In this document: positions 5,217-54,320 of the stretch, piece after piece | How positions within the stretch are numbered: the first letter of the stretch is position 1 | Layout: the number at the start of each line of letters is the position of its first letter | DNA from: Crambe crambe | Lineage: Eukaryota > Porifera > Demospongiae > Poecilosclerida > Crambeidae | Length of the DNA stretch: 64,000 bases | Reading direction: 5' to 3' | Assembly: GCA_963924555.1 (NCBI GenBank) | Contig: OZ004584.1 | Location: 8,563,753 to 8,627,752, forward strand | Notes under the pieces: model-generated | Seen by the model: the letters and a program-made list of their open reading frames with translations, nothing else | Told to the model about the DNA's origin: nothing | Database searches by the model: none | Position numbers and translations under genes: made by a program

Positions 5217-6086
5217 CTTTCAATGATGCCTTGAAAACCATGTTACTATAGCCAAATGCACCATACCCCCCTAACACCACCAATTCTCCTGTGGGGAGGA
5301 CAATAGTAGAAGTTTTACTTAACTTTTTAGACAAATTCCCCACATGTAACCAGGAGAGGGTGTGGGGGGAGTAGGCACAGATCTCAGAGGAATAGTAACC
5401 ACTAAGCCCTCCAGTAGATATCAGCTGATTTGCAAATGATGAAGGAGAGGAATGTTGTAGATGAGTCTGTAACTCACTCCACAAAACACTGGAGTGCGAC
5501 ATTTCTTGAGTATAGTTTTCATTAAGGAGTGACTCCAACTTGCAGTGAAATACTAAGCGACCCTGTCTCCGGCCACCCATCAAATACAGTCTTCCTTTAT
5601 GGAGAGTGGATTTCAAACAACTGCATGCTTTAGGTAGAGGTTGAACAGACGACCACTCATTGTCTTTGAATATCTCCACTACATTCACACTCTCTTCACT
5701 TGCTTGACCACCTGATACCACCAAACATTCGGGACTTCCAGTGTTCAATGCTGATGAATAATAACGACTAGTTGGCATTGGTGGCAGTGATGGTTGCCAG
5801 TTCATTCCTCCTTTAAGTGTCCATAGTTTATTTGTAGCCATATCAGTATCAGGTTCCATTCCACCAACAAGCACCACCTGAGAGTGGTAGGTGGTGAGGC
5901 CATAATAACGGGTGGGTGTGGTCACTTGTGACCATGAGTTCAAATCAGTGGAGGAGATAAACAGTAAGGCACTACTTTTCCATGATGATGTGTACCCTCC
6001 TATATATATCTTGTCCTGCAGTAGCACACATTGGGCATCACGCATACCCACTAGTAGTGGAGTGCACTTTGCCCAGTCAAGTGAGG
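5217..6086 (-). CDS. Kelch propeller exon of unit 1
   Basis: Open from about 6108 to donor GTGACT at 5211-5216; I place the acceptor at CCCCTAG (start 6086), an alternative being the ACAG at 6109. About 290 residues hold five to six kelch repeats, seen as recurring hydrophobic stretches ending in a GG doublet (LVGG, VSGG, LMGG, STGG, VLGG), each followed by a conserved W or Y. Kelch propellers bind protein or other ligands through loops on one face. The loops after the GG doublets differ from the other units. Confidence 0.85.
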
Positions 6087-6108
6087 CTAGGGGGTGGAGG
6101 ATGTCAAC

Positions 6109-6449
6109 CTGTAGAGATATAGTAGAGAATAGTTACCTTGCACACATGCACAACCTCATTTATTTTTTTGAATATCATTAAATTAGAGCATTCCAAAGTG
6201 TGTCAGAGCTTGCTAAGTAGTGAATCTGCCACTATGTATCTTCAGCACAGTTCCTCAAGTGTGCACTAAACATTTAGTGCACATAAAAAGTGTGCTTTAA
6301 AGCACTCTATTCAGAGGATCTGATTGGTCAAAAGTCATGTGACCAGCACTAATACTCTCTTTCTGCCATCCAAAGCGTGTATTTAAAATGGTACATGGTC
6401 AAAAATTTTCTGGTGCACTACAGTGAGCTACAGGGAACAAGTGGAGATA
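6109..6449. other. Unit-specific sequence replacing the usual 5' region of the kelch gene
   Basis: In units 2-5 the kelch exon is preceded, across a 28-50 nt intron, by a conserved CCCCCTGTTGTGCA exon-like segment. Unit 1 keeps the donor-side GTGTGCAAG (around 6140-6150) and then diverges completely. I see no gene in this AT-rich stretch. Confidence 0.5.
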
Positions 6450-6982: not shown

Positions 6983-7005
6983 TGGAGGTACTCTCTTGCC
7001 CCTTC

Positions 7006-7159
7006 TCCAGTGATGGACACTCCAAATAAAGCACACCTCTCTGTAAGGACACTTGTTGCTGTCCCACCATAGTACTTTGTGTATTGAATGACCTCTGAAT
7101 AAAGGTCACCTCTCTTTAAAGGACAATTTCAACTTGTCTGTTATTTGGAGACTCCACTG
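7006..7159. mobile_element. Mariner-like MITE remnant, unit 1 copy
   Basis: The right part of the CAGTGGA...TCCACTG element found at the same place in units 2-5. The first ~20 bp, including the left end, are missing here, as CTTCTCCAGTG runs directly into TGGACACTCC. Confidence 0.65.
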
Positions 7160-10089: not shown

Positions 10090-13000
10090 CTTATTCATGG
10101 TTGCTACAGGAGACAGACATCAGTAAACTACCCAGTAAACTAGCTAGTATAACACCTTACCTCTTGGGTGTGCTGTGGCTATCCTTTTGAACATTCCTCC
10201 ATCAAGCTTCCTAACACCAGCTGCTAGTTGCCGCCAACTCGGTTTGCCATATTTGGCAGTGTTGTAATTCTGCTTCAACCACTCAGTAATGGCGTCAAAC
10301 AGGCACCTGCTACAATTTCCAGAGTTATTCCTGCGAATGACCTCAATGGCACTGGTCTTCAGTCTGAGGTAAGTAGCAAGGGTGTCCCAACTGGCCGCCA
10401 AGTCCTCCACTTCATCCATCACATCTGCTGTGTCTTCAGGATCTATTATCAATGCAACATTGATTCATTGTAAGTTTGAGGGAGATCTGATGACTCACCT
10501 AGTTCAGAATCATCTATCATTTCAAGAACTTGTTTCCACTCAGTTCCACTGACCTGATTCAAAATATTACACCCTTCACTAGTAAAAATCAAATGGCAAC
10601 TGAGAGATTAACTCACATGTTGTCCAGCACTTGATGGGGAAGTCCCTAATTGATTGGTTGCTGGGAATGGAGTAACATGACAGTGGAGACCTTATGAGAA
10701 GAAAGAAGTAACATGTTGCAAGTGAACATTCATGATGTGTGGTCATCATGAACACTTGGAGACTCACTGGATTGAGGTGCTGATTGAGGTCCTCTCATAA
10801 GTCCTCCACCATCAGTGCTAGGGGAACAGTGGGTGTGGCTAGAGGTAGAAGCCTCACTAATAATCAAAGATGTCTTGGGTGTCTTGGATGTGCTGGCAAC
10901 ATCTGTAGGAGATGATCACCACTAGATACATGCAATATCAAGGTCATCTTAATTCCTCACATTTCTTCCTCAACACTTCACAGATGGCCTCAGCAGATTG
11001 AGTGTGTCCAGCCTTCACACACACCTCCAGCAAGTTCCCATAAGTGGTTGCAAGGCCACACCTCTCCTTCCACCTCCTCAGTGCCTCTCGTCTATTGGTC
11101 AAACAGATCAGTGATTCATGCTGGACTCTCAGTTAGGGGTTGACACATGAACCATTTCAAGTATTTGCAAAGTAATTCAAGGCCAAATGGTGAAAGTTCA
11201 ACATTACACATGGATATGTGGTCACAGGTGTATAGTCACTGGAGAAAGAGTGACCTTGAAAGCATGAAGAACACTGTGAAGTGACAATGTGTACAAAACC
11301 AAGATCACATTTTTTCTTTGTTTAGTTGGTGGGAGGGAATAAATAGAATCCTAATTAACCTCCTCTCAAAATAGTTGATCCCCACCCCAAAAAGAGGCAA
11401 TACCCAGGCCTCACCTCTGCAGTGCAGGTTCATTCTGATACTTCTTCTTGATGTCACTAATGTCAGTGGCAGTCAGTCCCAGAGAAACAGAGAGCTTCTC
11501 CTCCCAGTCCAGTGAGTGGTCCGCTACCTCATTCAGGTCCCTGTCCACTCTCCCCTGGTCCCAGTCCAACTTCAGCTCCAAGTGGGGGCGTGCATCCACT
11601 GGGAGACGTGAGAGGTAGGATTGGTAATCTGGTCCTGTGACATGTAGTTACAGTGTAGAGTGGATCCATGGAGGACAATGGGACTCACACTAACCTGAGG
11701 GGAGAACTGGGTCAGGTCCATTCACACCACTTCCATCTCCAGTCATGGGCTACAGTAGTACAATGAGATGAATAAGTGATACAATATGATCAACCCCTTA
11801 CCTCTCCAAACCACACTAAGTGCTTCTCCTTCATTTCCACAGGCCGAGGATCTTTCATGTCCAACAGACAGTGCATTAGGTGAGGAGAGGTCTCCCCACT
11901 CTTCACGATGCACAGATGGTCCATCTCAGGGTGAGTGGGACACTTGAAGGACACGTTGTGCTCCATGCAGGAAGCATAGTTTGTTCTTGAGGTGACCGTT
12001 TGAAGAGAAGACTCTACGATCTTTCGTACTTCGACACAAACCTCATGCAGTGGGGTTTTAGCGCTCCAAAGTCGAGTGATTCGTACTTCGTAGTGTTTTG
12101 GTTGGGAGATGAGGGTGACCACATCAGCATCACATCCATAACGAAACTGGACTCGATTCTTCTTGATTCCTCGTTGGATCAAGGTAAATGAGCTGTGACC
12201 GACGAGGTTGGCTGTTGCAGCTGGAAAGATGCCAAGTGGTACGAAACCACACTTGTATCGGATCAGGACAGAAACTGACAAGAGAGGGTTTGAGTCATGT
12301 CCTTGCAATGTGTCCAGTTCTTCACTTGTTGCATTCTGAAGGACACAAGGCATCAGATAAGTGACCTCTAAACTCTTGGTAGATGAGGTCTGAGAAGAAC
12401 TGCAGGGATGGGACTGAGTGATGGGAGCTATGATGTTGAGGTGTTCCAACAACTTCACCAGTTGTTCCAGGGGTATGTAGTCTCCTGAAACACCAATGAG
12501 ACTTTTTCTGGTGTCCTCCAGGGAGAACTGTCCCGTTTCCTTGAATCTCTCAGAGGCAGCTATGCCCATTCGACCGAACTTAAATGCATTGATGATCAGA
12601 TTGGTCACGCTATCGAAAACAATTTGAATGTTACAAATGACTGTTTCCTTTAACTCAGGTAGGTTGGGGAAGTACATCAGGACTCCGGCATGGTGGTGGA
12701 GGAACCACAGAGCTGTCTTTGTATCAGCAGCTGTCATGCCAAGCCTCTCAGCAAGTTGCAGGCAACTCTGCAGACTGGCTATTCTCTTGTCCCTCTTTCG
12801 CAGGCAGAGACTCAGCATCAGCCATGCAGCTGGGATGCGAAGCTTCTTGAAGTGCTTCTGCAAACCTTTCTCCAGAAAGGTACGAATATCTCTGACTTCA
12901 TCTGCTCCCCCTGTCATGTTGTCTATGGGGAGTACCATCCTGCCTTCTGAGGAGAACTGGACCAGATCGTCCCTGAAGAAATCGGTAGATCGAATCGTAT

Positions 13001-15526
13001 GTTGTAATTTTTGATCTAATTTGTCAATCTCCTCTTCAGACACTTTATCTTTATGTGTCCCGATTATGTATGCAACAGATTTGGAAGAAGAAGCTAAAAG
13101 CTCGTCCAATTTGGGATCAGAGGTTCCTTCGTTACTCTCTTGTGAGCTGTACGACTTGAAGCAAGCAATACTGGCTAGAACTGAGAGAAGGACTTCTTCC
13201 ACAGTATAGGTGGACTCGACCGGCAAGGTGGACTCACCTGATGGACTGAGGAAGGAGATAGTGTAACTTTTCTTGAGGTCATCGATCAACTTACAAAATA
13301 AAAGGTAAAGGCCAGGACCGATGGTGAGTGCTGGGAGCATGTCCATCAACTCGGGATGACCCCCTGTGTCTTCCATGTTAAGTAGTGCTGCGTCTTTGAA
13401 GAGCTGCTTCATATGACTCCATTTTTTGGCACTCATGGCATTACGGAACAAGTCAGCCATTTCATCCACGTCAGAGAGTAGAGTACCACTACCTCTAGGT
13501 CTTGCCATTGGTGGAGCAGGGTCGGATAAAAGTTCAAACTTTATCTCAGAAGTAAGTACCTCTGGTGACTTAAGATTGGTGTTAGAAAGCTTGGTCCTAT
13601 GTACTTCTTGAGTAGAAGGTGTTCCATCATGAATGGTGGACCCATCACTCACACTTTCTTCATTGGAGTTGATGCTGGACGTTTTCTGTTCAAAAATCTG
13701 CTGATAGAAGTACTGCAGGAACATGTGTGCCTCATCTGTGAGGTTTTCGGCTGCTAACCAATCTGTTCGTGTCACCATGGCTGCAGTGCAGGAGAGGTTC
13801 CTGATGATCACTCGTCCTGACTCAACTGCACCCGTACTAGGCTGCTCTGGCTCTCCAGCTGAAGCGATGTCTGTGATCTCTCCAGTCAGGCGGCGTCGGG
13901 TCGTTGTCTTTCCCAAACGAGGACCTCCAACGAAAGCCATTTTGACAAAGAGCATTTCTATGGATTCTTGTGTGGCAAGAATTCGGCGGTACGCATTCAA
14001 ATATTCAGATTTGCCTGAGAGGATAAGAGAGTTCAGTTTCTAACAAAGACTCAAACATAGTAGCTATTCCAAAAAGACTAAATTTTTTTGAGGATGGTGT
14101 ATAAGCTACCACATAGAGATAGGATATTGTCTCCCCCACGACTTTTCTAGATGAAGGTCTGGGAATTGGATGATACCTACACAATACACCTTTGTGTGAA
14201 ATCTCTACTCACCAGAGAGGTAGTCCTCAATCTGCACACTCAGTTCTTTCAGTTCAAGTTTCTTCAATACATCGAACAGTGACGTCCAGGTTGGAGGAAG
14301 ACGACTCTTTCCTGGAGATTCCCACTGGCTGATAACACCTTCAACAGCTTTAGCACGATCAGACGGAAGTTGATGCCAGATAGTCTCATTCGAAGTAATT
14401 CCAACTGCTCTTATCAATTCAGTGTGGACCTTTGCCAGTGACGTGACCACCTGGATTCCTACTCCCTCCAGTCTAGAGAGAGCACTCATGCTGAAGTGAC
14501 TCTCGGGGTTGAATGGGGTCACTGGGAATGGGATAAATTACAAAGCAGTTAAATTGGGACCTCCAGAGTATTTAAGAATTGTTGGGATGGACCATTTTGA
14601 TCTTGTGATACTATTACATCATCATGACATAATCAATTATTTGGGCAGAATTCAGTAGTCACCTTTCAATGATACCTTGAACACCCTGTTAATCAATCCA
14701 CCTCTCATTCCCCCTAACACGGCCAATTCTCCTTTGGGGAGGACAATAGTAGCAGTGCTACTCAACTCTATAGGCAAATTCCCAATATGTAACCAGGAGA
14801 GGGTGTGGGGGGAGTAGACATAGATCTCAGAGGAAGAGCCAGTACTAAACAATCCTCCAGTAGATATCAGCTGATTTGCAAATGATGAAGGAGAGGAACG
14901 TTTGAGATGGATCTGTAACTCACTCCACAAACCACTGGAGTGTGACATTTCTTCTTCATTAAGGAGTGACTCCAACTTGCAGTGAAACACTGAGCGACCC
15001 TGTTCATAGCCACCCATCAAATACAGTCTTCCTTTATGGAGAGTGGATTTCAAATGACTGCATGCTTTAGGTAGAGGTTGAACAGACGACCACTCATTGT
15101 CTTTGAGTATCTCCACTACATTCAAACAAGACCCTATATTTGCTTCACCACCTGATACCACCAAACATTCGGGACTTCCAGTGTTCAATGCTGATGAATA
15201 ATAACGACTAGTTGGCATTGGTGGCAGTGATGGTTGCCAGTTCGTTCCTCCTTTAAGTGTCCATAGTTTATTTGTAGTCATACGAGTATCAAGTTCTATT
15301 CCACCAACAAGCACCACCTGAGAGTGGTAGGTGGTGAGGCCATAATAACGGGTGGGTGTGGTCACTTGTGACCATGAGTTCAAATCAGTGGAGGAGATAA
15401 ACAGTGAGGCATCACTTTCCCATGATGGTGTGTACCCTCCTATATATATCTTGTCCTGCAGTAGCACACATTGGGCATCATACATATCCACTGGTAGTCG
15501 AGTGCACTCTGCCCAGTCAAGTGAGG
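9800..15526 (-). CDS. Unit 2: kelch-DD-Roc-COR-DD-DD gene
   Basis: Inferred exons: 15526-14663 kelch, 14521-14213 DD1, 14014-11802 Roc-COR (type B), 11749-11695 linker, 11634-11415 and 11091-10961 DD2, 10902-10768 Ser/Thr linker, 10660-10617, 10553-10499, 10442-10161 DD3, 10089-10039, 9921-9800 ending TAA. All junctions agree in phase and the sum is 1493 codons including the stop, which is strong support that DD2 and DD3 belong to one transcript. The first coding exon is uncertain: the segment that reads ATGTCAAAG in units 3 and 5 reads ATATCAAAG here (15605-15613), so the start may lie elsewhere. Role inferred: a cytoplasmic sensor/scaffold with a kelch ligand surface, a Roc GTPase switch and Death modules for assembly. 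Confidence 0.75.
10161..10442 (-). CDS. Death domain DD3 of unit 2
   Basis: A 282-nt exon, phase 1 on both sides, from acceptor AATAG to donor GTAAGG. Features: SWDTLATYLRL at the start, a CLFDAITEWL helix, GKPSWRQLAAGVRKLDGG, then a final FKRIATAH helix. This is the common invertebrate Death-domain pattern with the GxPSW signature. The same exon, nearly unchanged, occurs in units 4, 5 and 6 but not in 1 or 3. Confidence 0.85.
10499..10660 (-). CDS. Two linker exons between DD2 and DD3, unit 2 (10660-10617, 10553-10499)
   Basis: First 44 nt, phase 1 to 0 (TNQLGTSPSSAGQH); second 55 nt, phase 0 to 1 (SGTEWKQVLEMIDDSEL). Both have good GT..AG borders and the phases join the Ser/Thr linker to DD3. 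The second exon is the part that becomes fused to other exons in units 4 and 5. Confidence 0.55.
10768..10902 (-). CDS. Ser/Thr-rich linker exon of unit 2
   Basis: A 135-nt exon after a 58-nt intron, rich in Ser, Thr, Lys and His, ending in GPQSAPQS. It is longer than in units 1, 3 and 4 because it runs past the GTAACC donor used there to a downstream GTGAGT. Probably a flexible tether. Confidence 0.5.
10961..11634 (-). CDS. Death domain DD2 of unit 2 (11634-11415, 11091-10961)
   Basis: Same two-exon layout as unit 1, with phase 2 at the internal junction. The second exon reads RREALRRWKERCGLATTYG, including the Trp expected in the fourth helix of Death domains, which unit 1 has changed to Cys. 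The domain looks intact. Confidence 0.82.
11695..11749 (-). CDS. Small Gly/Pro linker exon, unit 2
   Basis: 55 nt, phase 0 to 1, acceptor TGTAG and donor GTTAGT, joining COR to DD2 as in unit 1. Confidence 0.6.
11802..14014 (-). CDS. Roc-COR GTPase exon of unit 2 (type B)
   Basis: A 2213-nt exon (about 737 residues) from acceptor CTCTCAG to donor GTAAGG. Motifs: P-loop GGPRLGKTT, switch DTGGHPELMD, VESTYTVEEV, GTHKDK, then COR with WFLHHHAGVLMYFP, CGFVPLG and GIKKNRVQFRYG. His replaces the Gln of DTGGQ; the corresponding Gln is often functionally important in Ras-like GTPases, so hydrolysis may be altered. Type B lacks a ~60-residue insert (KEQETRDE... to ...ELQD) that type A has between the COR halves. 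Long Ser/Thr-rich acidic loop between P-loop and switch. Confidence 0.9.
14213..14521 (-). CDS. Death-like domain DD1 of unit 2
   Basis: 309 nt, four codons longer than the other copies, with a divergent middle (SNETIWHQLPSDRAKA) but the same start (TPFNPES) and end (LSVQIEDYLSG). Phase 1 at both sides. Weak Death-domain resemblance in the second half. Confidence 0.6.
14663..15526 (-). CDS. Kelch propeller exon of unit 2
   Basis: 864 nt, the shortest kelch exon in the array. The framework is the same as in the other units, but loops after GG read EANIGSCLN, LFSTGSSS and MRGGLIN where the others differ. The fourth region lacks the ENYTQ codons between LLNE and EMSHS. Acceptor CCCCCTAG, donor GTGACT. 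Confidence 0.87.
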
Positions 15527-15576
15527 CTAGGGGGTGGAGGATGTTAACCTGTAGAGGTATAGTAGAGAATAGTTAC

Positions 15577-20609: not shown

Positions 20610-23600
20610 CTATAGGAACCCAACACAAGCACAAACATAAATATTGACTGTAGCTATACTTGCACTTACCCCCACTAGGGAGTGGACCAAGTGGTTTCTA
20701 ACACACAACTAAGTTAACTGAGTACAAAAATATTCTTTCTAAATATCTAAATAAAAAGGTTATGAAGGGATGGCCTTAAATCTAGCTGGGTTGTGTTAAA
20801 TACTGCAACTTCATATGAAAACAAGTCCCACAATTACCATAAACTTATTAATCAAATCAAAATAATTATGATGGGGAAGTCCCTAATTGATTGATTGCTG
20901 GGAGTGGAATGACATGAGAGTGGAGGTCATAATATTAAGAGCAGAAAGAAGTACCACTATGTTGTTAGTGGACATTCACAATGTGTGGTTACCTGATTGA
21001 GGTCCTCTCATATGTCCTCCACCATCAGTGCTAGAGGAAAAGTAGGTGTGGCTAGAGGTAGCCTCACTTGTACTCAAAGATTTCCTGGATGTCTTGGACG
21101 TGCTGGCAACATCTGTAGGAGATGATCACCACTAAATACATGCAATATCAAGGTCATCTTAATTCCTCACATTTCTTCCTCAACACTTCACAGATGGCCT
21201 CAGCAGACTGAGTGTGTCCAGCCTTCACACACACCTCCAGCAAGTTCCCGTAGGTGGCTGCAAGGCCATGACTCTCCTTCCACCTCTTCAGTGCCTCTCG
21301 TCTATTGGTCAAACAGATCAATGATTCACACTGGACTCTCAGTTAGAGGGGGAGATTTGTCCTCATGCAAGGGGGGGGGGGGAAGGAGAGACGTTAAATG
21401 GTATCACTGTTTCTCAGGTGAAATGTTTGTTGGGACGTATCTAAACATTGGAAGAATATCTCTTCCCCCACCATAATAACCACTTTGATGGGAAGCCAGA
21501 ACACCAAGTGCTCTAACCTCACCTCTGCAGTGCAGGTTCATTCTGATACTTCTTCTTGATGTCACTAATGTCAGTGGCAGTCAGTCCCAGAGGAACAGAG
21601 AGCTTCTCCTCCCAGTCCAGTGAGTGGTCCGCTATCTCATTCAGGTCCCTGTCCACTCCCCCATGGCCCCAGTCCAACTGCCATTTCAAGTGGGGACGTG
21701 CATCCACTGGGAGATGTGAGAGGTAGGATTGGTAATCTGGTCCTGTGACATGTAGTTACAGTGTAGAGTGGATCCATGGAGGACAATGGGACTCACACTA
21801 ACCTGAGGGGAGAACTGGGTCAGGTCCATTCACACCACTTCCATCTCCAGTCATGGGCTACAGTAGTACAATGTGAACTAAAGTCATATATACACACACT
21901 CTACTCTATATAAAGCACACCATGACTTCAGGGCTACATTTCGCTTACCTTTCCAAACCACACTAAATGCTGACTTTGCATATAAACTGGCTCAGGATTT
22001 TCGGGATCTTTAAGGCAAACCATGATGTGAGGAGAAGTCTCTCCACTGTCCACAACGCACAAGTGGTCTCTTCCAGGGTGAGAAGGACACTCAAAGGAGA
22101 GTTGGTAGCTCACAGAAAAGGCATAGTTCATACGAGAGGTGACTGTCTTCAGTGAACACTCAATGATCTCTCTGATGGCATGACACACCTCATGTGTTGG
22201 GGTCTTGGTGATCGGTAGTCTCTTGATGGATACCTCGTAGTACTTTGGTTGGGAGATGAGGGTGATGGTGTCGTAATCAGCTCCAAATCGAAACTGCACT
22301 CGGTTCTTCTTGATACCCTTTTCAATCAACTTGAGTGAGTTCTGCCCGACTAAGTTGGCAATGGTGGCAGGAAAGACCCCAAGGGGTACAAAACCACATT
22401 TGTATCGAATCAAGAGAGAGGCAGGAAGGAGTTGGTTGGAATCATTTTTTCGAAAGTCACACAGTTCTTCACCGCTCACATTCTCAAGGATGCAAGGCAT
22501 CAGGTAGACCTTTGAACTCTGTGAAGGATCGGACTGGACTATGGGAGCTATGATGTTAAGATGCTCCAACAGCTTCACCAGTTGGAGTAAGGGAATGTGA
22601 TCTTTCTTGATGGCCGCCAAAACGTCTTGCAACTCTTTCACTTCAAAGTACTGGAAGTCTTCTTCACGTTCTTCAGGACTTTTTCCTTTCGTCCAGATAT
22701 GACGATGTTCATAAAGTGCTGCTGCTATGTCTTTGAAGGGGATGAAGTCCAAACGTTCGTCTCTTGTTTCTTGTTCCTTTAAAGCTTCCTTCACATCTTC
22801 AAATGAAAACTGTCCAGTTTTCCGGAATTTTTCCTGAGCTGCCCTCTTCACTTTGCCATATTTGAATGTGTTGACAATCATGTTGGTCACACTGTCGAAT
22901 ACGATTTGTACGTCACAAATGACAGTCTCTTCCAGCTCAGGAACGTCAGGGAAGTACATCAAGACTCCAGCGTAGTGGTGCAGGAACCACAAGGCCACTT
23001 TAGTTTCCTTTGGGGACATGCCAAACTGCCAAGCTAGTTCCATGCAGTACTCCAGGCTCAGCATTCTCAGCACTTGTTTGCGAAGACAGAGACTGAACAT
23101 GAGCCAAGCTGCTGGAATGGGGATCTTCTTGAAGTGGTGCCGAATGCGATCCTGAAGGAATTTGCGAATGGAATCCACCTCTTCCTTACCTCCTGTCTTG
23201 TTGTCGACTGCAAGGACCAACTGATCCTTCTCGGCAAACTCAACGAGACCTTCTTTATAGAAGCTAGTATTAGTGATGGTACTTTTCAGCTCATCGTCGA
23301 ATTTCTTGATCTCTTCTTTGCTCACCTTGTCTTTGTGAGTAGCGACTATGAAAGCTACTGAATTGGATGATGGCTGAACCAACTTGGCTGCTGGATTGAG
23401 GTCAGAGATGTCTCCACCTAAAGTGTTATCAGGACAAGTACGACAGCAAGCAACGGCAGACAGGGCTTGGAGTATCATCTCCTCCACGGTGTACGTCGAT
23501 TCCACCGGTATGGTGGACTCACCTGTCGATGGATCCAGGTACGATATGCTATAGCGACTCTTGAGATCGTCGATGAGTTTGCAGAAGATCAGGTACAGGG

Positions 23601-25782
23601 AAGGACCCATTACGAGAGCTGGTAGCATGTCCATGAACTCTGGCTGACCTCCAGTGTCTTCCATCTTGATGAGAGCAGTGTATTTGAGTGTATACTTGAT
23701 CACCTCCCAATCCTTGGAAGCCATTGCCTTCGTCAACATGTCGTTCATGTCGAATGCAAAGTTGATATCGGCTGGACTGTTATAAGCTGATTCTTCCTGT
23801 TGGGGCTCAACCTCTACTGGTGGCTCTGATTCCTCTGCATCTTCCATGGGGATGATTGATTGAGTGGAGCCGACACTCGTGCTTGCAGAATTGAACCTAG
23901 ACTGGGTCTCCATTGCCTGAGGTGGTGGGCCCTCTGGCGTGATTAAGAGTGATCTATCCACTGATGGTTCAGATGCTATAACGGAGTTTGTTTCATAGAA
24001 AAACTGGAGGAGCATGCGTGCTTCGTCTGAAAGACCTTGGAGAGATGACCAATTCTCTGCAGATATCACAGCAGTACTGCTAGAGAGACTTCTAATGATG
24101 ACTTGTCTGGATTCGACCGTTCCCGTGCTAGGCTGCTCTGCCTCTCCAGCTGAGCTGATGTCTGCGATCTCTCCTGTCAGGCGGCGACGCATCGAAGTCT
24201 TTCCCAAACGAGGAGCACCAACAAAGAGGAACTTGAGGAAATACATGTCTAAAGACCCTCGTGTGGCAAGAATCTGTCGGTAGGCAGCAATGTAACCTCC
24301 AGTGAGACCTGACCAATAGAAAATAGTCATCATTAATATTAATATGTTCATCACATGCTGCAACCTCCCAACCCTTAGCAACCTTGATTGACTCAGAGGA
24401 AGTGGGCAGACCATAGTGGTCTATTTTGGACATAAATTATCAGCCATGGTTTAATCTCCACTCACCAGAGAGGTAGTCCTCAATCTGCACACTCAGTTCT
24501 TTCAGCTCAAGTTTTTTCAATATACCGAACAGTGACGTCCAGGTTGGAGGAAGACGACTCTTTCCTGGAGATTCCCATTGGTTGATCACAATTTCAACAG
24601 CTTCAGCAGGATCAGACACAAGTCGATGCTCCAAAGTGATCCCAGCAGCTTGTATCAGCTCAGTGTGGACCTTTGCCAGTGACGTGACCACCTGGATTCC
24701 TACTCCCTCCAGTCTAGAGAGAGCAGTCATGCTGAATTGACTCTCGGGGTTGAATGGGGTCACTGGGAATGGGATAAATTACAAAGCAGTTAAATTGGGA
24801 CCTCCAGAGTATTTAAGAATTGTTGGGATGGACCATTTTGATCTTGTGATACTATTACATCATCATGACATAATCAATTATTTGGGCAGAATTCAGTAGT
24901 CACCTTTCAATGATGCCTTGAACACCCAGTTACAATATCCAGATGCATTCGATTCCCCTAACACAACCAATTCTCCTGTGGGGAGGACAATAGTAGAAGT
25001 GCAATCCAACTCTATAGGCAAATCCCCCATGTGTAACCAGGAGAGTGTGTGGGGGGAGTAGGCACAGATCTCAGAGGAACGGGCACCATTACTAATAAGA
25101 CCTCCAGTAGATATCAGCTGATTTGCAAATGATGAAGGAGAGGAATATTTGAGGTGAATCTGTAACTCACTCCACAAACCACTGGAGTCTGACATTTCTT
25201 GAGTATAGTAATCATTAAGGAATGACTCCAACTTGCAGTGAAATACTGAGGGACCCTGTCCCCAGCCACCCATCAAATACAGTCTTCCTTTATGGAGAGT
25301 GGATTTCAAATGACTGCATGCTTTAGGTAGAGGTTGAACAGACGACCACTCATTGTCTTTGAGTATCTCCACTACATTCACAAGAGTCTCTCCACTATCT
25401 GCACCACCTGATACCACTAAACATTCGGGACTTCCAGTGTTCAATGCTGATGATGCACAACGACTAGTTGGCATTGGTGGCAGTGATGGTTGCCAGTTCG
25501 TTCCTCCTTTAAGTGTCCATAGTTTATTTGTAGCCATATCAGTATCAGGTTCCCTTCCACCAACAAGCACCACCTGAGAGTGGTAGGTGGTGAGGCCATA
25601 ATAACTGGTGGGTGTGGTCACTTGTGACCATGAGTTCAAATCAGTGGAGGAGATAAACAGTGAGGCATCACTTTCCAGTGATGGTGTGTACCCTCCTACA
25701 TATATATTGTCCTGCAGTAGCACACATTGGGCATCCCACATACGCACTGGTAGTGGAGTGCACTCTGCCCAGTCAAGTGAGG
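20286..25782 (-). CDS. Unit 3: kelch-DD-Roc-COR-DD gene, apparently intact
   Basis: Inferred exons: 25782-24904 kelch, 24762-24466 DD1, 24308-21949 Roc-COR (type A), 21857-21803 linker, 21742-21523 and 21301-21171 DD2, 21112-20993 Ser/Thr linker, 20609-20393 and 20331-20286 tail ending TAA. Phases agree throughout and sum to 1441 codons with stop. This is the cleanest model of the DD2-only form. Only the 5' end is doubtful: the candidate first exon (25861-25833) has ATG but lacks eight bases found in units 4 and 5, which would shift its frame. Confidence 0.8.
20993..21112 (-). CDS. Ser/Thr-rich linker exon of unit 3
   Basis: 120 nt, phase 1 both sides, with acceptor CTACAG and donor GTAACC. 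Low-complexity SKTSRKSLSTSEATSS type sequence. Confidence 0.5.
21171..21742 (-). CDS. Death domain DD2 of unit 3 (21742-21523, 21301-21171)
   Basis: Same layout as units 1 and 2. The first exon holds LNEIADHSLDWEEKL and LGLTATDISDIKKK; the second RREALKRWKE and AATYGNLLEVCVKAG. Helices and core Trp residues are all present, so it should fold. Confidence 0.83.
21803..21857 (-). CDS. Small Gly/Pro linker exon, unit 3
   Basis: 55 nt, phase 0 to 1, identical in layout to units 1 and 2. Confidence 0.6.
21949..24308 (-). CDS. Roc-COR GTPase exon of unit 3 (type A)
   Basis: 2360 nt, about 786 residues, open throughout, from acceptor TTGGTCAG to donor GTAAGC. P-loop GAPRLGKTS (residues 31-39), switch DTGGQPEFMD about 215, ATHKDKVS about 323, COR motif FLHHYAGVLMYFP about 444, and the type A insert KEQETRDERL before the second COR half. 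The upstream in-frame ATG at 24414 lies in the intron and is not needed: the splice from DD1 fits in phase 1. Roc-COR proteins usually dimerise through COR and switch with GTP/GDP binding. Confidence 0.92.
24466..24762 (-). CDS. Death-like domain DD1 of unit 3
   Basis: 297 nt, phase 1 on both sides, near-identical to units 1, 4 and 5. It begins TPFNPES and ends LSVQIEDYLSG. It links the kelch propeller to the GTPase. Confidence 0.6.
24904..25782 (-). CDS. Kelch propeller exon of unit 3
   Basis: 879 nt. Loops after GG differ from neighbours: YTPSLESDA, ADSGETLVN, WGQGPS, LISNGARSS; the last blade has GES in place of GGY. The framework (DLNSWSQVTTPT, YGLTTYHSQ, NWQPSLPPMPTSR) is unchanged. Acceptor CCCCCTAG, donor GTGACT. 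Confidence 0.88.
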
Positions 25783-25832
25783 CTAGGGGGTGGAGGATGT
25801 CAACCTGTAGAGGTATAGTAGAGAATAGTTAC

Positions 25833-28690: not shown

Positions 28691-29205
28691 TTGAATAAGA
28701 GCTATGAATATATGATGTCAGACCAAAGCAAATCTTGATCAGACATTTGACCTTTTGACCCGGTAAATGGCCTATGGCAGACTGTTATAATCCTCACCGC
28801 TAGAATGGGTTGCATGGATACAAAATGTTGTGCATTATTTAGAATTTCAGTCATTGAATAAGGTCCATATGAGTTGGTTAATTGGGTTACTGTATCCCTA
28901 AGGAAATCATGCTAAACTCACTCAGTTTGTTAGGTGATGCTGGGAACACTGCATTGCCATTGGGTCCATGGATCCCTGTGAAAACCATAACAACAATACA
29001 TCATGTAGTTGTTAAGTTAGGAAGAACTTACAGAAGAAACCAAACATCATAGTGGAGAAAATCAGTAGAGTCATCAGCATTAAGCATACACATTTTCTTG
29101 ACCGATACCAGGACTTGTCTGTGGGTGAATAAAATCATAGTATCTGATGGATTATCTGGTTTCATAACAAGAGTTCTTATTGAGGGCTAAGGGGCAAGAC
29201 TGTGA

Positions 29206-35200: not shown

Positions 35201-36274
35201 TGGATTCCTACTCCTTCCAGTCTAGAGAGAGCACTCATGCTGAATTGACTCTCTGGGTTGAATGGGGTCACTGGGAATGGGATAAATTACAAAGAGTTAA
35301 ATTGGGACCTCCAGAGTATTTTGGGATGGACCATTTTGATCTTGTGATACTATTACATCATCATGACATAATCAATTATTTGGACAGAATTCAGTAGTCA
35401 CCTTTCAATGATGCCTTGAACACCCTGTTACTATAGCCAAATGCACCATACCCCCCTAACACCACCAATTCTCCTGTGGGGAGGACAATAGTAGCAGTGC
35501 CACGTAACTCTATAGGCAAATCCCCCACATGTAACCAGGAGAGGGTGTGGGGGGAGTAGGCACAGATCTCAGAGGAAAGGGCACCATTAATAAGACCTCC
35601 ATTAGATATCAGCTGATTTGCAAATGATGAAGGAGAGGAATTTTGAAGGTAAATCTGTAGCTCACTCCACAAACCACTGGAGTGTGACATTTCTTGAGTA
35701 TAGTTTTCATTAAGGAGTGACTCCAACTTGCAGTGAAATACTGAACGACCCTGTTCATAGCCACCAATCAAATACAGTCTTCCTTTATGGAGAGTGGATT
35801 TCAAACAATAACATGATTTAGGTAGAGGTTGAACAGACGACCACTCATTGTCTTTGAGTATCTCCACTACATTCACATAAGACCCTCCACTTGCTCTACC
35901 ACCTGATACCACCAAACATTCGGGACTTCCAGTGTTCAATGCTGACGATTTATAACGTCTAGTTGGCATTGGTGGCAGTGATGGTTGCCAGTTCGTTCCT
36001 CCTTTAAGTGTCCATAGTTTATTTGTAGCCATATCAGTATCAGGTTCCCTTCCACCAACAAGCACCACCTGAGAGTGGTAGGTGGTGAGGCCATAATAAT
36101 AAGTGGGTGTGGTTACTTGTGACCATGAGTTCAAATCAGTGGAGGAGATAAACAGAGACAGAGAGGGATCATTTGATGATGTGGCTGTTACATATATCTT
36201 GTCCTGCAGTAGCACACATTCGGCATTCAATACACCTGCTGGTAGTGGAGTGCACTCTGCCCAGTCAAGTGAGG
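29206..36274 (-). CDS. Unit 4: kelch-DD-Roc-COR-DD-ZU5-UPA-DD gene
   Basis: Inferred exons: 36274-35402 kelch, 35270-34974 DD1, 34525-32343 Roc-COR (type B), 32290-32227 fused linker, 32170-31889 DD3, 31766-31713, 31655-31143 ZU5, 31085-30991, 30893-30759 and 30689-30500 UPA, 30379-30160 and 29964-29837 DD2, 29778-29665 linker, 29282-29206 tail ending TGA. All 13 junctions agree in phase; the sum is 1741 codons with stop. The ZU5-UPA-Death order is that of UNC5, PIDD1 and ankyrins, here attached to a kelch/Roc-COR protein. In PIDD1 ZU5-UPA takes part in autoprocessing and in holding the Death domain; a similar control is possible but unproven. Confidence 0.82.
29665..29778 (-). CDS. Ser/Thr-rich linker exon of unit 4
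   Basis: 114 nt, phase 1 both sides, open. It lacks one repeat of the TSKT motif compared with unit 3. Confidence 0.5.
29837..30379 (-). CDS. Death domain DD2 of unit 4 (30379-30160, 29964-29837)
   Basis: Same fold as in the other units, with changes DIKTMHQNKPQLQ at the end of the first exon and a clean 3-nt deletion near the end of the second. It follows UPA directly in phase 1, so UPA and DD2 are one continuous chain. Confidence 0.83.
30500..31085 (-). CDS. UPA domain of unit 4, three exons (31085-30991, 30893-30759, 30689-30500)
   Basis: The first exon has FYYSARLY...LSVFCTCLYHA, the beta-strand pair that opens UPA domains; the second GEWEVTTATTRLTSDEII and GWEIRFHKEP; the third IPEELGWEVSQCPDYPPRCTV and LDQELSFNISVRG. 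Borders are GT..AG, phases 1-0, 0-0, 0-1. UPA is conserved in UNC5, PIDD and ankyrin, where it lies between ZU5 and Death, as here. No catalytic residues can be assigned by eye. Confidence 0.75.
31143..31655 (-). CDS. ZU5 domain exon of unit 4
   Basis: 513 nt, phase 1 both sides. Core: VSLKGTGIELLIPDDDSKF (first strands), CLSGPFELPEDYEPASPAY, VKFQKAVTVKIHHYASL, EEDCDDMVFLSA and GEIKLSHFCL. These are the typical strands of invertebrate ZU5 domains next to Death domains. I did not find a clear autoproteolytic HFS triad as in PIDD1; HFC near the end is the closest. It occurs once in this window. Confidence 0.85.
31713..31766 (-). CDS. Small exon between DD3 and ZU5, unit 4
   Basis: 54 nt, phase 1 both sides, from acceptor TTGTAG to donor GTGAGT, encoding ATLSELVSYLPRLKSGFH. 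It links DD3 to ZU5. Confidence 0.6.
31889..32170 (-). CDS. Death domain DD3 of unit 4
   Basis: 282 nt, almost identical to DD3 of units 2, 5 and 6 (SWDTLATYLRL, GKPSWRQLAAGVRKLDGG) with LGAS for LAAS. Here it lies between COR and ZU5 rather than at the C-terminus. Confidence 0.85.
32227..32290 (-). CDS. Fused linker exon of unit 4
   Basis: 64 nt, phase 0 to 1. The 5' part (PMTGDG) matches the post-COR linker of units 1-3; the 3' part (GTELDQVLEMIDDSEL) matches the exon before DD3 in unit 2. The fusion point is at GATGGAA and keeps the frame, removing DD2 and its linkers from this position. Confidence 0.7.
32343..34525 (-). CDS. Roc-COR GTPase exon of unit 4 (type B)
   Basis: 2183 nt, about 727 residues, open. 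P-loop GGPRLGKTT, switch DTGGHPELMD, GTHKDKVS, COR FLHHHAGVLMYFP. Close to unit 2 but ten residues shorter in the acidic loop between P-loop and switch, where the two differ in a block around TVNLLSDVDE. It shares the Gln-to-His change in the switch motif. Confidence 0.92.
34526..34973. other. Long intron between DD1 and Roc-COR of unit 4
   Basis: About 450 bp, longer than the matching type A introns (about 140-160 bp); unit 2 has a shorter related version (14015-14212). It holds a short inserted stretch ending in a poly-G run near 34765. No gene. Confidence 0.5.
34974..35270 (-). CDS. Death-like domain DD1 of unit 4
   Basis: 297 nt, phase 1 both sides. Close to units 1, 3 and 5 although the GTPase that follows is type B. 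Ends IEDYLTG rather than IEDYLSG. Confidence 0.6.
35402..36274 (-). CDS. Kelch propeller exon of unit 4
   Basis: 873 nt. The first blade is unusual: VTATSSNDPSLS replaces the GGYT...SDAS loop, so the first GG doublet is lost. Other loops read RASGGSYVN, YEQGRS and LINGALSS. The last blade is nearly the same as in unit 1 (YGAFGYSN), suggesting exchange between copies. Confidence 0.88.
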
Positions 36275-36324
36275 CTAGGGGGTGGAGGATGTCAACCTGT
36301 AGAGGTATAGTAGAGAATAGTTAC

Positions 36325-49612: not shown

Positions 49613-52600
49613 CTATTGTAGCAAATTTAATGGTTGCACTTTCTAGTTCCAAGGACTTGATCACTTATTCATGGTTGCTACAGGAGACAGAGATCAGTAA
49701 ACTACCCAGTAAATTAGCTAGTATAACACCTTACCTCTTGGGTGTGCTGTGGCTATCCTTTTGAACATTCCTCCATCAAGCTTCCTAACACCAGCTGCTA
49801 GTTGCCTCCAACTCGGTTTGCCATATTTGGCAGTGTTGTAATTCTGCTTCAGCCACTCGGTAATGACGTCGAACAGGCACCTGCTACAATTTCCAGAGTT
49901 ATTCCTGCGGATGACCTCAATGGAACTGGTCTTCAGTCTGAGGTAAGTAGCAAGGGTGTCCCAACTGGCCGCCAAGTCCTCCACTTCATCCATCACATCT
50001 GTTATGTCTTCAGGATCTATTATCAATGCAACATTGACTCATTGTAAGTTTGAGGGAGATCTGATGACTCACCTAGTTCAGAATCATCTATCGTTTCAAG
50101 AACTTGTTTCCACTCGGTTCCATTGGTTGCTGGGAGTGGAGTAACATGAGAGTGGAGACCTAGAAATAATTAAGAATGAAATTATGTTGCAAGGAGACAA
50201 GGAATTGTTTGCACTACCAGTACTGACCAGACTGAGGTGAGACAGGTCCACTTGTACCCTCTCCACTACTATCAGTCAGAGGCTATAATGAAGGGAAGAA
50301 ATAATATGCAATCTTGTTTACCAGTTATAACACGAGACTCATTATATTGTAACGTCTTCTAAAGGATTATCTTGGTCACTTTAGACTATATATCATGCTC
50401 ACTAAGGTTCTCTACTCTATATAATGCACACCAAATCATTACGTCACGACTTCAGGGCAAGGTACTTGCTACAATTTACTTACCTTTCCAAACCAAACCA
50501 AATGCTGACTTTGCATATAAACAGGTTCAGGTTCTCTGGGATTCTTGAGGCAGTCCATTATGTAAGGAGAAGTCTCTTCACTGTCCACAACGCACAAGTG
50601 GTCTCTTCCAGGGTGGGAGGGACATTCAAAGGAGAGTTGGTAGCTCACAGAAAAGGCATAGTTCATACGAGAGGTGACTGTCTTCAGTGTATGCTCAATG
50701 ATCTCTCTGATGGCATGACACACCTCGTGTGTTGGGGTCTTGGTGATCGGTAGTCTCTTGATGGATACCTCGTAGTACTTTGGTTGGGAGATGAGGGTGA
50801 TGGTGTCACGATCAGCTCCGAATCGAAACTGCACTCGGTTCTTCTTGATGCCTTCCTTGATCAACTTGAGTTTGTGTGAGCTCTGCCCAACTAAGTTGGC
50901 AATGGTGGCAGGAAAGACCCCAAGGGGTACAAAACCACATTCGTATCGAATCAAGAGAGAGGCAGGAAGGAGTTGGGAATCATTATTTCGAAAGTCATTC
51001 AGTTCTTCGCTGCTCACATTCTCAAGGATGCAGGGCATCAGGTAGACCTTTGAACTCTGTGAAGGGTCGGACTGGACTATGGGAGCTATGATGTTGAGAT
51101 GTTCCAGCAGCTTCACCAGTTGGAGTAAGGGAATGTGATCTTTCTTGATGGCCGCCAAAGCATCTTGCAACTCTTTCACTTCAAAGTACTTGATGTCTTC
51201 AGCACGTTCTTCAAAACTTTTTCCTTTCGTCCAGATATGACGATGTTCATGAAGTGCTGCTGCTATGTCTTTGAAGGGGATGAAGTCCAAACGTTCGTCT
51301 CTCGTTTCTTGCTCCTTTAAAGCTTCCTTCACATCTTCAAATGAAAACTGTCCAGTTTTCTGGAATTTTTCCTGAGCTGCCCTCTTCACTTTGCCATATT
51401 TGAATGTGTTGACAATCATGTTGGTCACACTGTCGAATACGATTTGTACGTCACAAATGACAGTGTCTTTCAGCTCAGGAACGTCAGGGAAGTACATCAA
51501 GACTCCAGCGTAGTGGTGCAAGAACCACAAGGCCACTTTAGTCTCCTTTGTGGACATGCCAAACTGCCAAGCTAGTTCCATGCAGTACTCCAGGCTCAGC
51601 ATTCTCACCACTTGTTTGCGAAGACAGAGACTGAACATGAGCCAAGCTGCTGGAATGGGGATCTTCTTGAAGTGGTGCCGAATGCGATCCTGAAGGAATT
51701 TGCGAATGGAATCCACCTCTTCCTTACCTCCTGTCTTGTTGTCGACTGCAAGGACCAACTGATCCTTCTCGGCAAACTCAACGAGACCTTCTTTATAGAA
51801 GCTAGTATTCGTGATGGTACTTTTCAGCTCATCGTCAAATTTCTTGATCTCTTCTTTGCTCACCTTGTCTTTGTGAGTAGCAACTATGAAAGCTACTGAA
51901 TTGGATGATGGCTGAACCAACTTGGCTGCTGGATTGAGGTCAGAGTCTCCATCTAAAGTGTTATCAGGACAAGTGCGACAGCAAGCAACGGCAGACAGGG
52001 CTTGGAGTATCATCTCCTCCACGGTGTATGTCGATTCCACTGGTATGGTGGACTCACCTGTCGATGGATCCAGGTACGATATGCTATAGCGACTCTTGAG
52101 ATCGTCGATAAGTTTGCAGAAGATCAGGTACAGGGAAGGACCCATTACGAGAGCTGGTAGCATGTCCATGAACTCTGGCTGACCTCCAGTGTCTTCCATC
52201 TTGATGAGAGCAGTGTATTTGAGTGTATACTTGATCACCTCCCAATCCTTGGAAGCCATTGCCTTCGTCAACATGTCGTTCATGTCGAATGCAAAGTTGA
52301 TATCGGCTGGACCGTTATAAACTGATTCTTCCTGCTGGGGCTCAACCTCTACTGGTGGCTCTGACTCCTCTGCATCTTCCACGGGGACGATTGATTGAGT
52401 AGAACTGACACTCGTGCTTGCAGAATTGAACCTAGACCGGGTCTCCATTGCCTGAGGTGGTGGGCCCTCTGGCGTGATTAAGAGTGATCTATCCACTGAT
52501 GGTTCAGATGCTACAACGGAGTTCGTTTCAAAGAAGAACTGGAGGAGCATGCGTGCTTCGTCTGAAAGACCTTGGAGAGATGACCAATTCTCTGCAGATA

Positions 52601-54320
52601 TCACAGCAGTACTGCTAGAGAGACTTCTAATGATGACTTGTCTGGATTCGACCGTTCCCGTGCTAGGCTGCTCTGCCTCTCTAGCTGAGCTGATGTCTGC
52701 GATCTCTCCTGTCAGGCGGCGACGCATCGAAGTCTTTCCCAAACGAGGAGCACCAACAAAGAGGAACTTGAGGAAATACATGTCTAAAGACCCTCGTGTG
52801 GCAAGAATCTGTCGGTAGGCAGCAATGTAACCTCCAGTGGGACCTGACCAATAGAAAATAGTCATCATTAATATTAATATGTCCATCACATGGTACAACC
52901 TCCCGACCCTTAGAAACCTTGATTGATTCAGAGGAAGTGGGCAGACCATAGTGGTCTACTTTGAATATAAATTATCAGCCATGGTTTAATCTCCACTCAC
53001 CAGAGAGATAGTCCTCAATCTGTACACTCAGTTCATTCAGCTCAAGTATTTTCAATATACCAAACAATGATGTCCAGGTTGGAGGAAGACGACTCTTTCC
53101 TGGAGATTTCCATTGGCTGATCACAATTTCAACAGCTTGAGCAGGATCAGACACAAGACGATGCTCCAAAGTGATCCCAGCAGCTTGTATCAGTTCAGTG
53201 TGGACCTTTGCCAGTGACGTGACCACCTGGATTCCTACTCCCTCCAGTCTAGAGAGAGCACTCACGCTGAATTGACTCTCGGGGTTGAATGGAGTCACTG
53301 GGAATGGGATAAATTACAAAGCAGTTAAATCGGGACCTCCAGAGTATTTAAGAATTGTTGGGATGGACCATTTTGATCTTGTGATACTATTACATCATCA
53401 AGACATAATCAATTATTTGGGCAGAATTCAGTAGTCACCTTTCAATGATGCCTTGAATACCCTGTTACTCCAATCTCCAGAAGCACTGAACCCCCCTAAC
53501 ACCACCAATTCTCCTGTGGGGAGGACGATAGTAGCAGTGGTATCCAATTCTATAGGCAAATTCCCCACATGTAACCAGGAGAGGGTGTGAGGGGAGTAGG
53601 CACAGATCTCAGAGGAACGGGCATAACCAAGACATCCTCCAGTAGATATCAGCTGATTTGCAAATGATGAAGGAGAAGACCTTTCAAGATGAATCTGTAA
53701 CTCACTCCACAAACCACTGGAGTGTGATATTTCTTGAGTATAGTCTTCATTAAGGAGTGACTCCAACTTGCAGTGAAATACTGAGAGACCCTGTCCCAAG
53801 CCACCCATCAAATACAGTCTTCCTTTATGGAGAGTGGATTTCAAACAATAACATGCTTTAGGTAGAGGTTGAACAGACGACCACTCATTGTCTTTGAGTA
53901 TCTCCACTACATTCACTCTTTCCCTTCCACTATCTGCACCACCTGATACCACCAAACATTCGGGATTTCCAGTGTTCAATGCTGATGAATAATAACGACT
54001 AGTTGGCATTGGTGACAGTGATGGTTGCCAGTTTGTTCCTCCTTTAAGTGTCCATAGTTTATTTGTAATCATATCAGTATCAGGTTCTTCTCCACCAACA
54101 AGCACCACCTGAGAGTGGTAGGTGGTGAGGCCATAATAACGGGTGGGTGTGGTCACTTGTGACCATGAGTTCAAATCAGTGGAGGAGATAAACAGTGAGG
54201 CATCACTTTCCAGTGATGATGTGTACCCTCCTCCTAAATATATCGTGTTCTGCAGTAGCACACATTGGGCAATTCTCATAAGCTTTGGTAGTGGAGTGCA
54301 CTCTGCCCAGTCAAGTGAGG
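49613..54320 (-). CDS. Unit 5: kelch-DD-Roc-COR-DD gene, DD3-only form, 3' end incomplete
   Basis: Inferred exons: 54320-53439 kelch, 53297-53001 DD1, 52843-50484 Roc-COR (type A), 50282-50228 linker, 50129-50073 fused exon, 50016-49735 DD3, 49663-49613 tail. All phases agree through the 51-nt tail exon (phase 1 out). The final exon seen in units 2 and 6 is missing: the dynamitin relic begins within 200 bp. Translation would run on or use an unseen exon. The domain part is open, so a protein may still be made. Confidence 0.75.
49735..50016 (-). CDS. Death domain DD3 of unit 5
   Basis: 282 nt, phase 1 both sides, with SWDTLATYLRLKTSSIEVI and GKPSWRQL. It is the only Death domain after COR in this unit. 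Confidence 0.85.
50073..50129 (-). CDS. Fused linker exon of unit 5
   Basis: 57 nt, phase 1 both sides. Its first eight bases (CAACCAAT, after the CTCCCAG acceptor) come from the TNQLGT exon of unit 2 and the rest (GTEWKQVLETIDDSEL) from the exon before DD3. The fusion is in frame and drops DD2 from the gene. Confidence 0.65.
50228..50282 (-). CDS. Unit 5 version of the post-COR linker exon
   Basis: 55 nt, phase 0 to 1, encoding PLTDSSGEGTSGPVSPQS. Same length and phase as the PMTGDGSG exon of other units but only weakly similar, with a GTCAGT donor. Confidence 0.5.
50484..52843 (-). CDS. Roc-COR GTPase exon of unit 5 (type A)
   Basis: 2360 nt, about 786 residues, open. P-loop GAPRLGKTS, DTGGQPEFMD, ATHKDKVS, FLHHYAGVLMYFP. 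Small in-frame differences from unit 3 (DGDSDLN with one codon fewer; an added Lys-Leu in HKLKLIKEG) balance so the length is the same. Confidence 0.92.
53001..53297 (-). CDS. Death-like domain DD1 of unit 5
   Basis: 297 nt, phase 1 both sides, with ILKILELNELSVQIEDYLSG at the end. An internal Met of other copies is Val here, which also shows that this exon is not a translation start. Confidence 0.6.
53439..54320 (-). CDS. Kelch propeller exon of unit 5
   Basis: 882 nt, the longest copy. Variable loops: GGGYTSSLESDA (one extra Gly), ADSGRERVN, LGQGLS, CLGYARSS, FSASGDWSN. Framework as in the other units. Confidence 0.88.

Follow-up and report, generated by a model that had tools for sequence, protein, structure and literature searches.

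Do kelch exons that recur along one contig of a sponge genome encode a diversifying recognition surface? The question is raised by a window of 64,000 nucleotides of the demosponge Crambe crambe (contig OZ004584.1, here C6; C6:8563753-8627752 of the 143.1-Mb genome), the whole stretch of DNA that was analysed, in which five kelch exons resemble each other closely and differ in short clusters at fixed places. We consider it likely that these exons belong to kelch-headed receptors with Death and Roc-COR modules, in which the ligand face of a beta-propeller diversifies and its frame is homogenised by conversion, and that the receptors work in a manner similar to the fungal proteins HET-D and HET-E. 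Beyond the original prediction, made on the five exons, the analysis shows how large the family is, that exchange erodes linkage and that different backbones have kelch exons in common.

Kelch exons and selection on the loop face

All five exons are located on the minus strand, at positions 5217..6108 (gene 1, 892 nt), 14663..15548 (gene 2, 886 nt), 24904..25804 (gene 3, 901 nt, the reference for the structure model), 35402..36296 (gene 4, 895 nt) and 53439..54342 (gene 5, 904 nt). Each of them is matched by the Pfam family Kelch_6 with 49-74 bits (curated cut-off 25.3). Every loop string quoted originally is present in the translations; the last GG doublet assigned to the third exon is actually GE. 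Exon lengths differ by multiples of three, as had been noted, and the starts need correction: the likely splice acceptor, ctctacag/GTTGACATC (slash at the splice junction), is 22 nt upstream of those proposed, resulting in exons of 886-904 nt. Gene 3 has the acceptor ctctacag/GTTGAC and the donor TTGAAAG/gtgact, in phases 0 and 1, and splice sites and phases are consistent across all five copies in the window.

To find related exons, one window kelch exon was used as a query in a search through the genome, and 134 of 227 candidates were scored. This search disclosed 30 close copies without a stop codon, 77-86% identical to the query (the query itself aside), and 28 of them are distinct in sequence. 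Frequent frame-breaking indels had been named in advance as a sign against selection, and all 30 close copies are open; a 31st copy of 68% identity has one TGA and was left out of the analysed set. The majority of open copies (24/30) are clustered within 0.28 Mb at C6:8.39-8.68 Mb, while the remaining ones are found at C6:8.17 Mb (one), at C6:3.16-3.30 Mb (four) and on C12 (one). Kelch exons of greater divergence are scattered across many contigs. The kelch exon of gene 2 does not differ at any of 885 nt from that at C6:8429270-8430130 (L028), about 149 kb apart, and L034 and L035, distant from one another in the cluster, differ at one of 912 nt. The identity, full or almost full, of such distant pairs suggests that duplication or conversion took place very recently. 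L028 and L035 were dropped from the comparisons as near-duplicates of L029 (0/885) and L034 (1/912), respectively.

AlphaFold, run with an alignment of 82 sequences, confidently predicts a six-bladed kelch propeller (predicted local distance difference test, pLDDT, 93.9; predicted template modelling score 0.91). The top 50 Foldseek matches listed are all kelch propellers, natural and designed (template modelling scores 0.60-0.76), and the closest solved folds among them include KLHL12 with peptides, KLHDC10, LZTR1 with RAS, and Keap1. Alignment columns were classed by DSSP into strands A-D and loops AB, BC, CD and DA. DA and BC loops make up the ligand pocket of Keap1 and KLHL12 (PMC4668279, PMC7333892), so that the variable loops correspond to the face that binds substrates in these two proteins. 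Among the 28 distinct copies, 37 of the 42 columns with at least five different residues belong to BC or DA, three to strand A and two to strand C, and none to AB, CD, B or D. Variable sites are therefore at fixed places and not scattered over the fold. Each BC loop exists in 20-26 distinct versions among the 28 copies.

Ratios of non-synonymous to synonymous substitution (dN/dS) were calculated according to Nei-Gojobori for all pairs of the 28 distinct copies. The whole kelch exon has a dN/dS of 1.32, compared with 0.55 in the adjacent helical exon, named Death1 here, and its proportion of non-synonymous differences (pN, 0.094) is ~2.7-fold higher than the differences per site in the kelch-Death1 intron (0.035). 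In BC and DA loops together, the proportion of synonymous differences (pS) is 0.091, pN is 0.210 and dN/dS is 2.54 (codon bootstrap 1.82-3.60), while in all other columns the corresponding values are 0.064, 0.041 and 0.63 (0.41-0.93). On the opposite face (AB and CD) dN/dS is 0.79, and in pooled strands 0.60. The density of synonymous and non-synonymous changes on the face is unequal, since its pS is raised 1.41-fold and its pN ~5.2-fold (4.6-5.9) relative to the rest. An alignment artefact could be rejected because the excess persists in gap-free columns (2.42, interval 1.60-3.69, vs 0.59), and it was also observed in columns more than two positions away from gaps (2.25, interval 1.37-4.02, vs 0.59). 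Copies followed by type A of the Roc-COR exon described below show a face dN/dS of 2.63, and those followed by other types 2.47. The contrast is weaker if the five window exons are taken alone, with a face dN/dS of 1.83 and a face pS that is raised too, at 0.135 compared with 0.047 for the opposite face and 0.070 for strands.

Site models, implemented with F3x4 codon frequencies, five beta classes, FastTree topologies and one scale factor, point in the same direction. When each of the six blade segments was given its own tree, log-likelihoods were -5911.0 for M8, -6186.4 for M8a and -6187.2 for M7; twice the log-likelihood difference (2dlnL) between M8 and M8a is 551, and M8 places 20% of columns at an omega of 6.7. 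On a single tree, the values were -6636.5 (M8) and -7064.1 (M8a). Posterior probability (PP) exceeds 0.95 in 45 columns, of which 27 are in BC, 10 in DA, four in strand A, two in C, one in B and one in CD (Fisher p 3e-12), and the selected BC columns come from all six blades. No two of the 28 copies have the same face, the mean difference between them being 30.6 of the 45 columns, and tyrosine (11% vs 2%) and arginine (10% vs 1.4%) are frequent at selected columns. In controls, 2dlnL of M8 against M8a was 21.8 for Death1 in 28 copies and 6.0 in the 15 type-A copies, and 12.1 for the N-terminal part of Roc-COR in the 15 type-A copies; the kelch exon in the same 15 copies gave 386. These results bear out the central claim of the original prediction, diversifying selection on one surface of the propeller.

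Exchange among copies and the associated backbones

Linkage in the kelch exon is at background by ~50-100 bp. At 47 biallelic sites, r2 amounts to 0.110 at distances below 15 bp, 0.062 at 15-50 bp, 0.034 at 50-100 bp and 0.028-0.049 beyond, and a decay as strong was obtained in 6 of 1000 permutations. Four-gamete conflicts affect 37-59% of site pairs, depending on the distance class. A GENECONV-like fragment test yielded a z of 11.7, reached in none of 500 shuffles; over the global threshold are 2 of 378 pairs when all polymorphic sites are considered and three with non-singletons, with tracts of 270-426 bp. Distances in loops of different blades are near uncorrelated for most pairs of blades, with correlations of up to 0.41 in the first loops.

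The Roc-COR exons associated with the 30 copies fall into type A (15 copies), C (6), B (4), D (2) and E (1), with two unassigned. Types B, C and D share 41-50% identity with type A in the parts compared, while their kelch exons are 77-86% alike. In the 25 typed copies used after exclusion of L033, L037 and L038, the closest kelch neighbour carries a different backbone type in 12 cases, and backbone type changes 8 times on the kelch tree, as opposed to 9.3 times after shuffling (P 0.17, with 25 tips being few). Kelch exons thus do not detectably track the backbone type. Some copies, such as L013, L010 and L023, combine mixed kinds of Death1 and Roc-COR exons. Upstream of the kelch exon, starting from ~25 bp, three unrelated kinds of sequence were observed in the 30 copies (L009-L038), and judging from this pattern promoters or first exons seem to be exchanged among copies as well.

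On the minus strand of gene 3, the kelch exon is followed by the helical Death1 exon (24466..24762, Death-like by eye only) and by a Roc-COR exon of type A (21937..24308). The other Death1 exons are located at 4788..5084 (gene 1), 14213..14521 (gene 2), 34974..35270 (gene 4) and 53001..53297 (gene 5). Roc-COR exons, also on the minus strand, occupy 2280..4648 in gene 1 (type A, with an in-frame TGA at ~4050-4052), 11799..14005 in gene 2 (type B, 49.5% identical to type A), 32337..34528 in gene 4 (type C, 49.6% identical to type A over 805 columns) and 50472..52840 in gene 5 (type A). A partial one, at 62601..63998, belongs to the next gene, whose kelch exon (L012) is outside the window. The kelch exon of gene 1 is intact despite the TGA in its Roc-COR exon. 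In gene 4, Roc-COR is followed on the same strand by a Death domain (31890..32168; PF00531, 26.6 bits, cut-off 22.6), a ZU5 exon region (31123..31665; PF00791, 23.4 bits, cut-off 21), more exons, a second Death domain across two exons delimited by eye (29832..30395; PF00531, 41.6 bits, cut-off 22.6), a short exon with a hydrophobic stretch seen by eye, a possible membrane helix (29031..29118), and a last helical exon.

The proposed context of Death domains and a GTPase therefore stands in part. Two Death domains and ZU5 exceed their Pfam cut-offs, and Roc (14.1 bits, cut-off 27) and COR-A (26 bits, cut-off 35.3) remain under theirs; the Death1 exon has no match to any Pfam family at E<=1. Of a PIDD/UNC5-like module with ZU5 and UPA, ZU5 is the part detected. 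The structure model of Roc-COR is weak (pLDDT 55.6 overall) and confident in the COR half only, the Roc half being mostly below 50. Four folds in the Protein Data Bank match this model at E<=0.001 and all are Roco proteins, which supports the predicted presence of a COR domain. By inspection, the Roc part contains GAPRLGKTS, which we take to be the P-loop, together with DTGGQ and THKD, presumably further GTPase motifs. A protein search retrieved 573 relatives of Roc-COR at E<=0.001, and among the best 120 there are often several per contig. No match to WD40, NACHT or LRR was obtained with Pfam in the exons scanned, which represent part of the exons of these genes, and the combination of NACHT and LRR that defines NLR proteins is accordingly not found there. 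Between the receptor genes, a plus-strand frame at 46067-46636 matches Sugar_tr (sugar transporter) with 34.4 bits, and contains arginine-glutamate runs (RERERE) between the matching parts.

Other kelch families and haplotypes

Three further families of this genome, named after their contigs, were examined for the same pattern, excluding L057, L059, L064, L068, L075, L079 and L087 as near-copies or outliers. A strong face pattern characterises C6 and a clear one C13; C12 gives a suggestive one, and C5 lacks it. In the C13 family (13 of 15 exons), face dN/dS is 1.67 (1.13-2.56) and that of the rest 0.49. At the one locus checked in each case, C13 kelch exons are preceded by a protein kinase plus a coiled-coil-like stretch, and the C12 kelch comes after a kinase. 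An SH2 domain was observed near one C5 copy. L089 and L091 (C12, C13) represent tandem genes with a kinase, a coiled-coil-like stretch and a C-terminal kelch exon, and show a milder face pattern.

Contig groups for comparison across families were picked from 120 listed kelch proteins. A contig of 977,563 bp holds 12 kelch proteins among the matches listed, 82% alike and 42-44% identical to the C6 copies. It is probably from another species, because the matches scored for this genome include no such cluster. The p-distances in BC and DA loops, 0.456 and 0.226, are close to those of the C6 family, 0.455 and 0.233. The two families are on separate sides of a branch with full support in the Shimodaira-Hasegawa-like approximate likelihood ratio test, and the variability of their columns is correlated in BC and DA (rho 0.68, n 95), with a rho of 0.13 outside. 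Separate branches and shared variable columns together indicate that the same loop columns diversified after separate expansions.

For the C. crambe assembly odCraCram1.1, contigs of the second haplotype have been deposited (PMC12166358). Most of the 30 copies have equal proteins in the protein database, and among the matches listed there are four second-haplotype-like proteins 96.4-99.0% identical to a primary copy. Seven others (P0012, P0016, P0023, P0026, P0029, P0031 and P0035) have no counterpart of at least 90% identity among the 30 primary copies, and presumably represent the alternate haplotype; P0012, P0016, P0023 and P0035 share one contig of 626,771 bp. Kelch gene content may thus differ between haplotypes.

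Interpretation and known systems

In the mechanism we propose, the protein would begin with a six-bladed kelch propeller at its N-terminus, and after it would come the part encoded by the helical exon, the Roc-COR GTPase region, and the Death domains and ZU5. This propeller would be the recognition head, contacting a variable partner through its BC/DA face, where ~45 positions on all six blades are under diversifying selection, and the frame strands and the opposite face would maintain the fold and signalling contacts. Duplication would supply copies and selection would retain new faces. Among tandem copies, short-tract conversion together with unequal exchange would keep the framework uniform and mix loops of different blades, and the same processes would move kelch heads between backbones that differ at about half of their residues. 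Binding of a ligand would then act on the Roc-COR switch and on the assembly of Death and ZU5 domains, ending in a cell-death or defence response; that the switch would gather Death and ZU5 domains is suggested by likeness to Roco and ZU5-Death proteins. We infer that the kelch exon is spliced to the rest, that the face binds and the protein signals, and that the ligand is non-self, either a microbe or an allogeneic cell; the protein is accordingly termed a putative receptor, with a putative ligand. The biology of C. crambe would be compatible with a microbe or another sponge as the partner. More tentatively, the system could be specified as an animal counterpart of HET-D/E, with a single-exon kelch head, ~45 diversifying positions, a uniform frame, conversion that shuffles single loops as well as whole heads among backbones, and several chassis (Death/ZU5/Roc-COR and kinase-coiled coil).

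Several observations weigh against this interpretation. If left unspliced, the kelch frame reaches a stop after four codons, and splicing to Death1 is deduced from splice sites and phase. The first exon and gene start are uncertain due to the three kinds of upstream sequence, and the TGA of gene 1 is a nonsense codon where genes 3 and 5 have TGG. Borders of the loop and strand classes were not set blind, as DSSP and variability had been viewed side by side, and the boundary of the face is not sharp, since strand A alone has a dN/dS of 2.23 and CD alone 1.03. The ratio of pS between the face and the rest, 1.41, has an interval of 0.97-2.06 in codon bootstrap and of 1.07-1.82 over sequences. The site models were our own implementation, in which several of the fits ended on reaching the evaluation limit; the signal in the controls is not null, although it is more than one order of magnitude below that of kelch. 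Among other families, the interval of the C12 face (13 of 16 exons; 1.15, 0.84-1.58, rest 0.37) spans 1, and the C5 face (8 of 10 exons; 0.69, 0.46-1.03, rest 0.41) has no excess. Finally, allelic differences in four gene pairs (15 differences, two apparent start-codon artefacts left out) are not enriched in BC and DA, with 5 of 15 on a face that comprises 113 of 321 columns. Seven of the 15 are located at PP>0.95 columns, compared with 2.1 expected, in addition to one BC indel, all of these being small numbers.

The C5 values are what mere tolerance would produce, and loops tend to be the more variable part of propellers. Relaxed constraint, with tolerant loops and constrained framework strands, is nevertheless extremely improbable as an explanation of the C6 family. 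The face dN/dS of 2.54 has a lower bound of 1.8 and remains well above 1 away from gaps, AB and CD turns are equally exposed and stay below 1 together, and pN of the whole exon exceeds the divergence of the intron. Because relaxation cannot lift dN/dS above 1, we reject it for this family unless synonymous sites of the face are strongly constrained themselves. We also consider it unlikely that a mutational mechanism, such as a hotspot, targeted hypermutation or biased conversion, loads the loops with or without selection. Face pS is indeed raised, and AGY accounts for 156 of 293 serine codons on the face, in comparison with 111 of 829 elsewhere, a bias resembling that of antibody complementarity-determining regions. 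However, such a mechanism should lift synonymous and non-synonymous changes alike, and the excess of pN over pS on the face rules out a hotspot alone. At selected codons, the mean number of nucleotide states is 3.2, 3.0 and 2.0 at positions 1, 2 and 3. The serine bias was discarded as a mark of targeted mutation, being weak per column (AGY-major to TCN-major 8/5 on the face and 5/26 elsewhere) and shared by the Death1 exon (163 AGY to 169 TCN). Conversion biased towards GC is rejected because GC content is lower on the face (42.5%) than elsewhere (47.1%).

If diversifying selection on the face is accepted, the nature of the partner has to be considered. Allorecognition in preference to microbe sensing, with a face that discriminates between self and other individuals in the manner of fungal HET-D/E, is possible but doubtful. 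The mechanistic parallel with HET-D/E (PMC1805685) favours it, as do the seven presumed alternate-haplotype proteins without a close counterpart, four of them on one contig, while the four allelic-looking pairs are more similar than one would expect at a classical allorecognition locus, and expansion to 30 copies together with the kinase-kelch families fits microbe sensing too. It is very unlikely, in our opinion, that the protein is an adaptor inside the cell with a variety of endogenous partners, such as a substrate receptor of ubiquitin ligases. Although BC/DA faces of human kelch proteins bind degrons (PMC4668279, PMC7333892), Pfam detected no BTB, F-box or similar partner domain in the exons scanned, the context is that of Death, ZU5 and Roc-COR, and endogenous partners would hardly be expected to lift dN/dS well beyond 1 across 30 tandem copies.

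The receptor interpretation has its closest parallel in HET-D and HET-E of Podospora anserina, which carry a beta-propeller recognition domain in a gene family; the propeller evolves in concert within genes as well as between them, few of its surface positions diversify, and its sequence is independent of the phylogeny of signalling domains (Paoletti and colleagues, PMC1805685). Both a diversifying propeller surface and concerted evolution across diverged backbones (25 tips) were found here. The fungal proteins differ in having WD40 and NACHT, four selected positions per repeat and shuffling of whole repeats (PMC1805685), in contrast to single-exon kelch blades, in-register loop exchange, Roc-COR/Death/ZU5 and ~45 selected columns in an animal. 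Since kelch and Roc-COR replace WD40 and NACHT, the sponge genes are not members of the HET-D/E family and are alike only in working. Keap1 and KLHL proteins are encoded by conserved genes in single copy, have BTB/BACK partners, and are not known to form tandem arrays in which the face diversifies. They share with the sponge proteins the six-bladed fold and the DA and BC ligand pocket (PMC4668279, PMC7333892).

Amphioxus DED/TRADD-N WD40 proteins are likewise animal death-fold adaptors of an expanded family, and their propellers are described as made variable by recombination; they differ in WD40 and varying repeat number, and the relevant section reports no site-level selection analysis (Kaur and colleagues, PMC8195603). 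NLR repertoires of demosponges are large expansions of intracellular receptors with Death domains, built on NACHT and LRR (PMC12909245). The word kelch does not occur in the former text, and neither kelch nor Roco in the latter. Roco proteins such as LRRK2, DAPK1 and MASL1 have a central Roc-COR, some with kelch or WD40 propellers and Death domains, and the passages concerned give no account of them as tandem diversifying receptor families (PMC6320773). Kelch genes are among those with altered expression in sponges in response to microbes or niche (PMC6208332, PMC11000336). No hypervariable or positively selected kelch receptor heads of sponges or other invertebrates were found among the papers listed by searches of the open-licence literature of PubMed Central.

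Discrimination of self from non-self, and of symbionts from food, is largely open in sponges at the receptor level. The genes described here offer a concrete, mapped candidate, with a kelch head, defined variable columns, ~30 copies in one genome and the same columns variable in a family on another contig. The defined columns of the face also predict the residues whose swap would alter specificity. If the proposed reading is true, these genes could include the long-sought intracellular receptors of allorecognition or microbe specificity in sponges, and their repertoires would differ between haplotypes within one individual. Animals, like fungi, would then have recruited the face of a beta-propeller as a hypervariable recognition surface.

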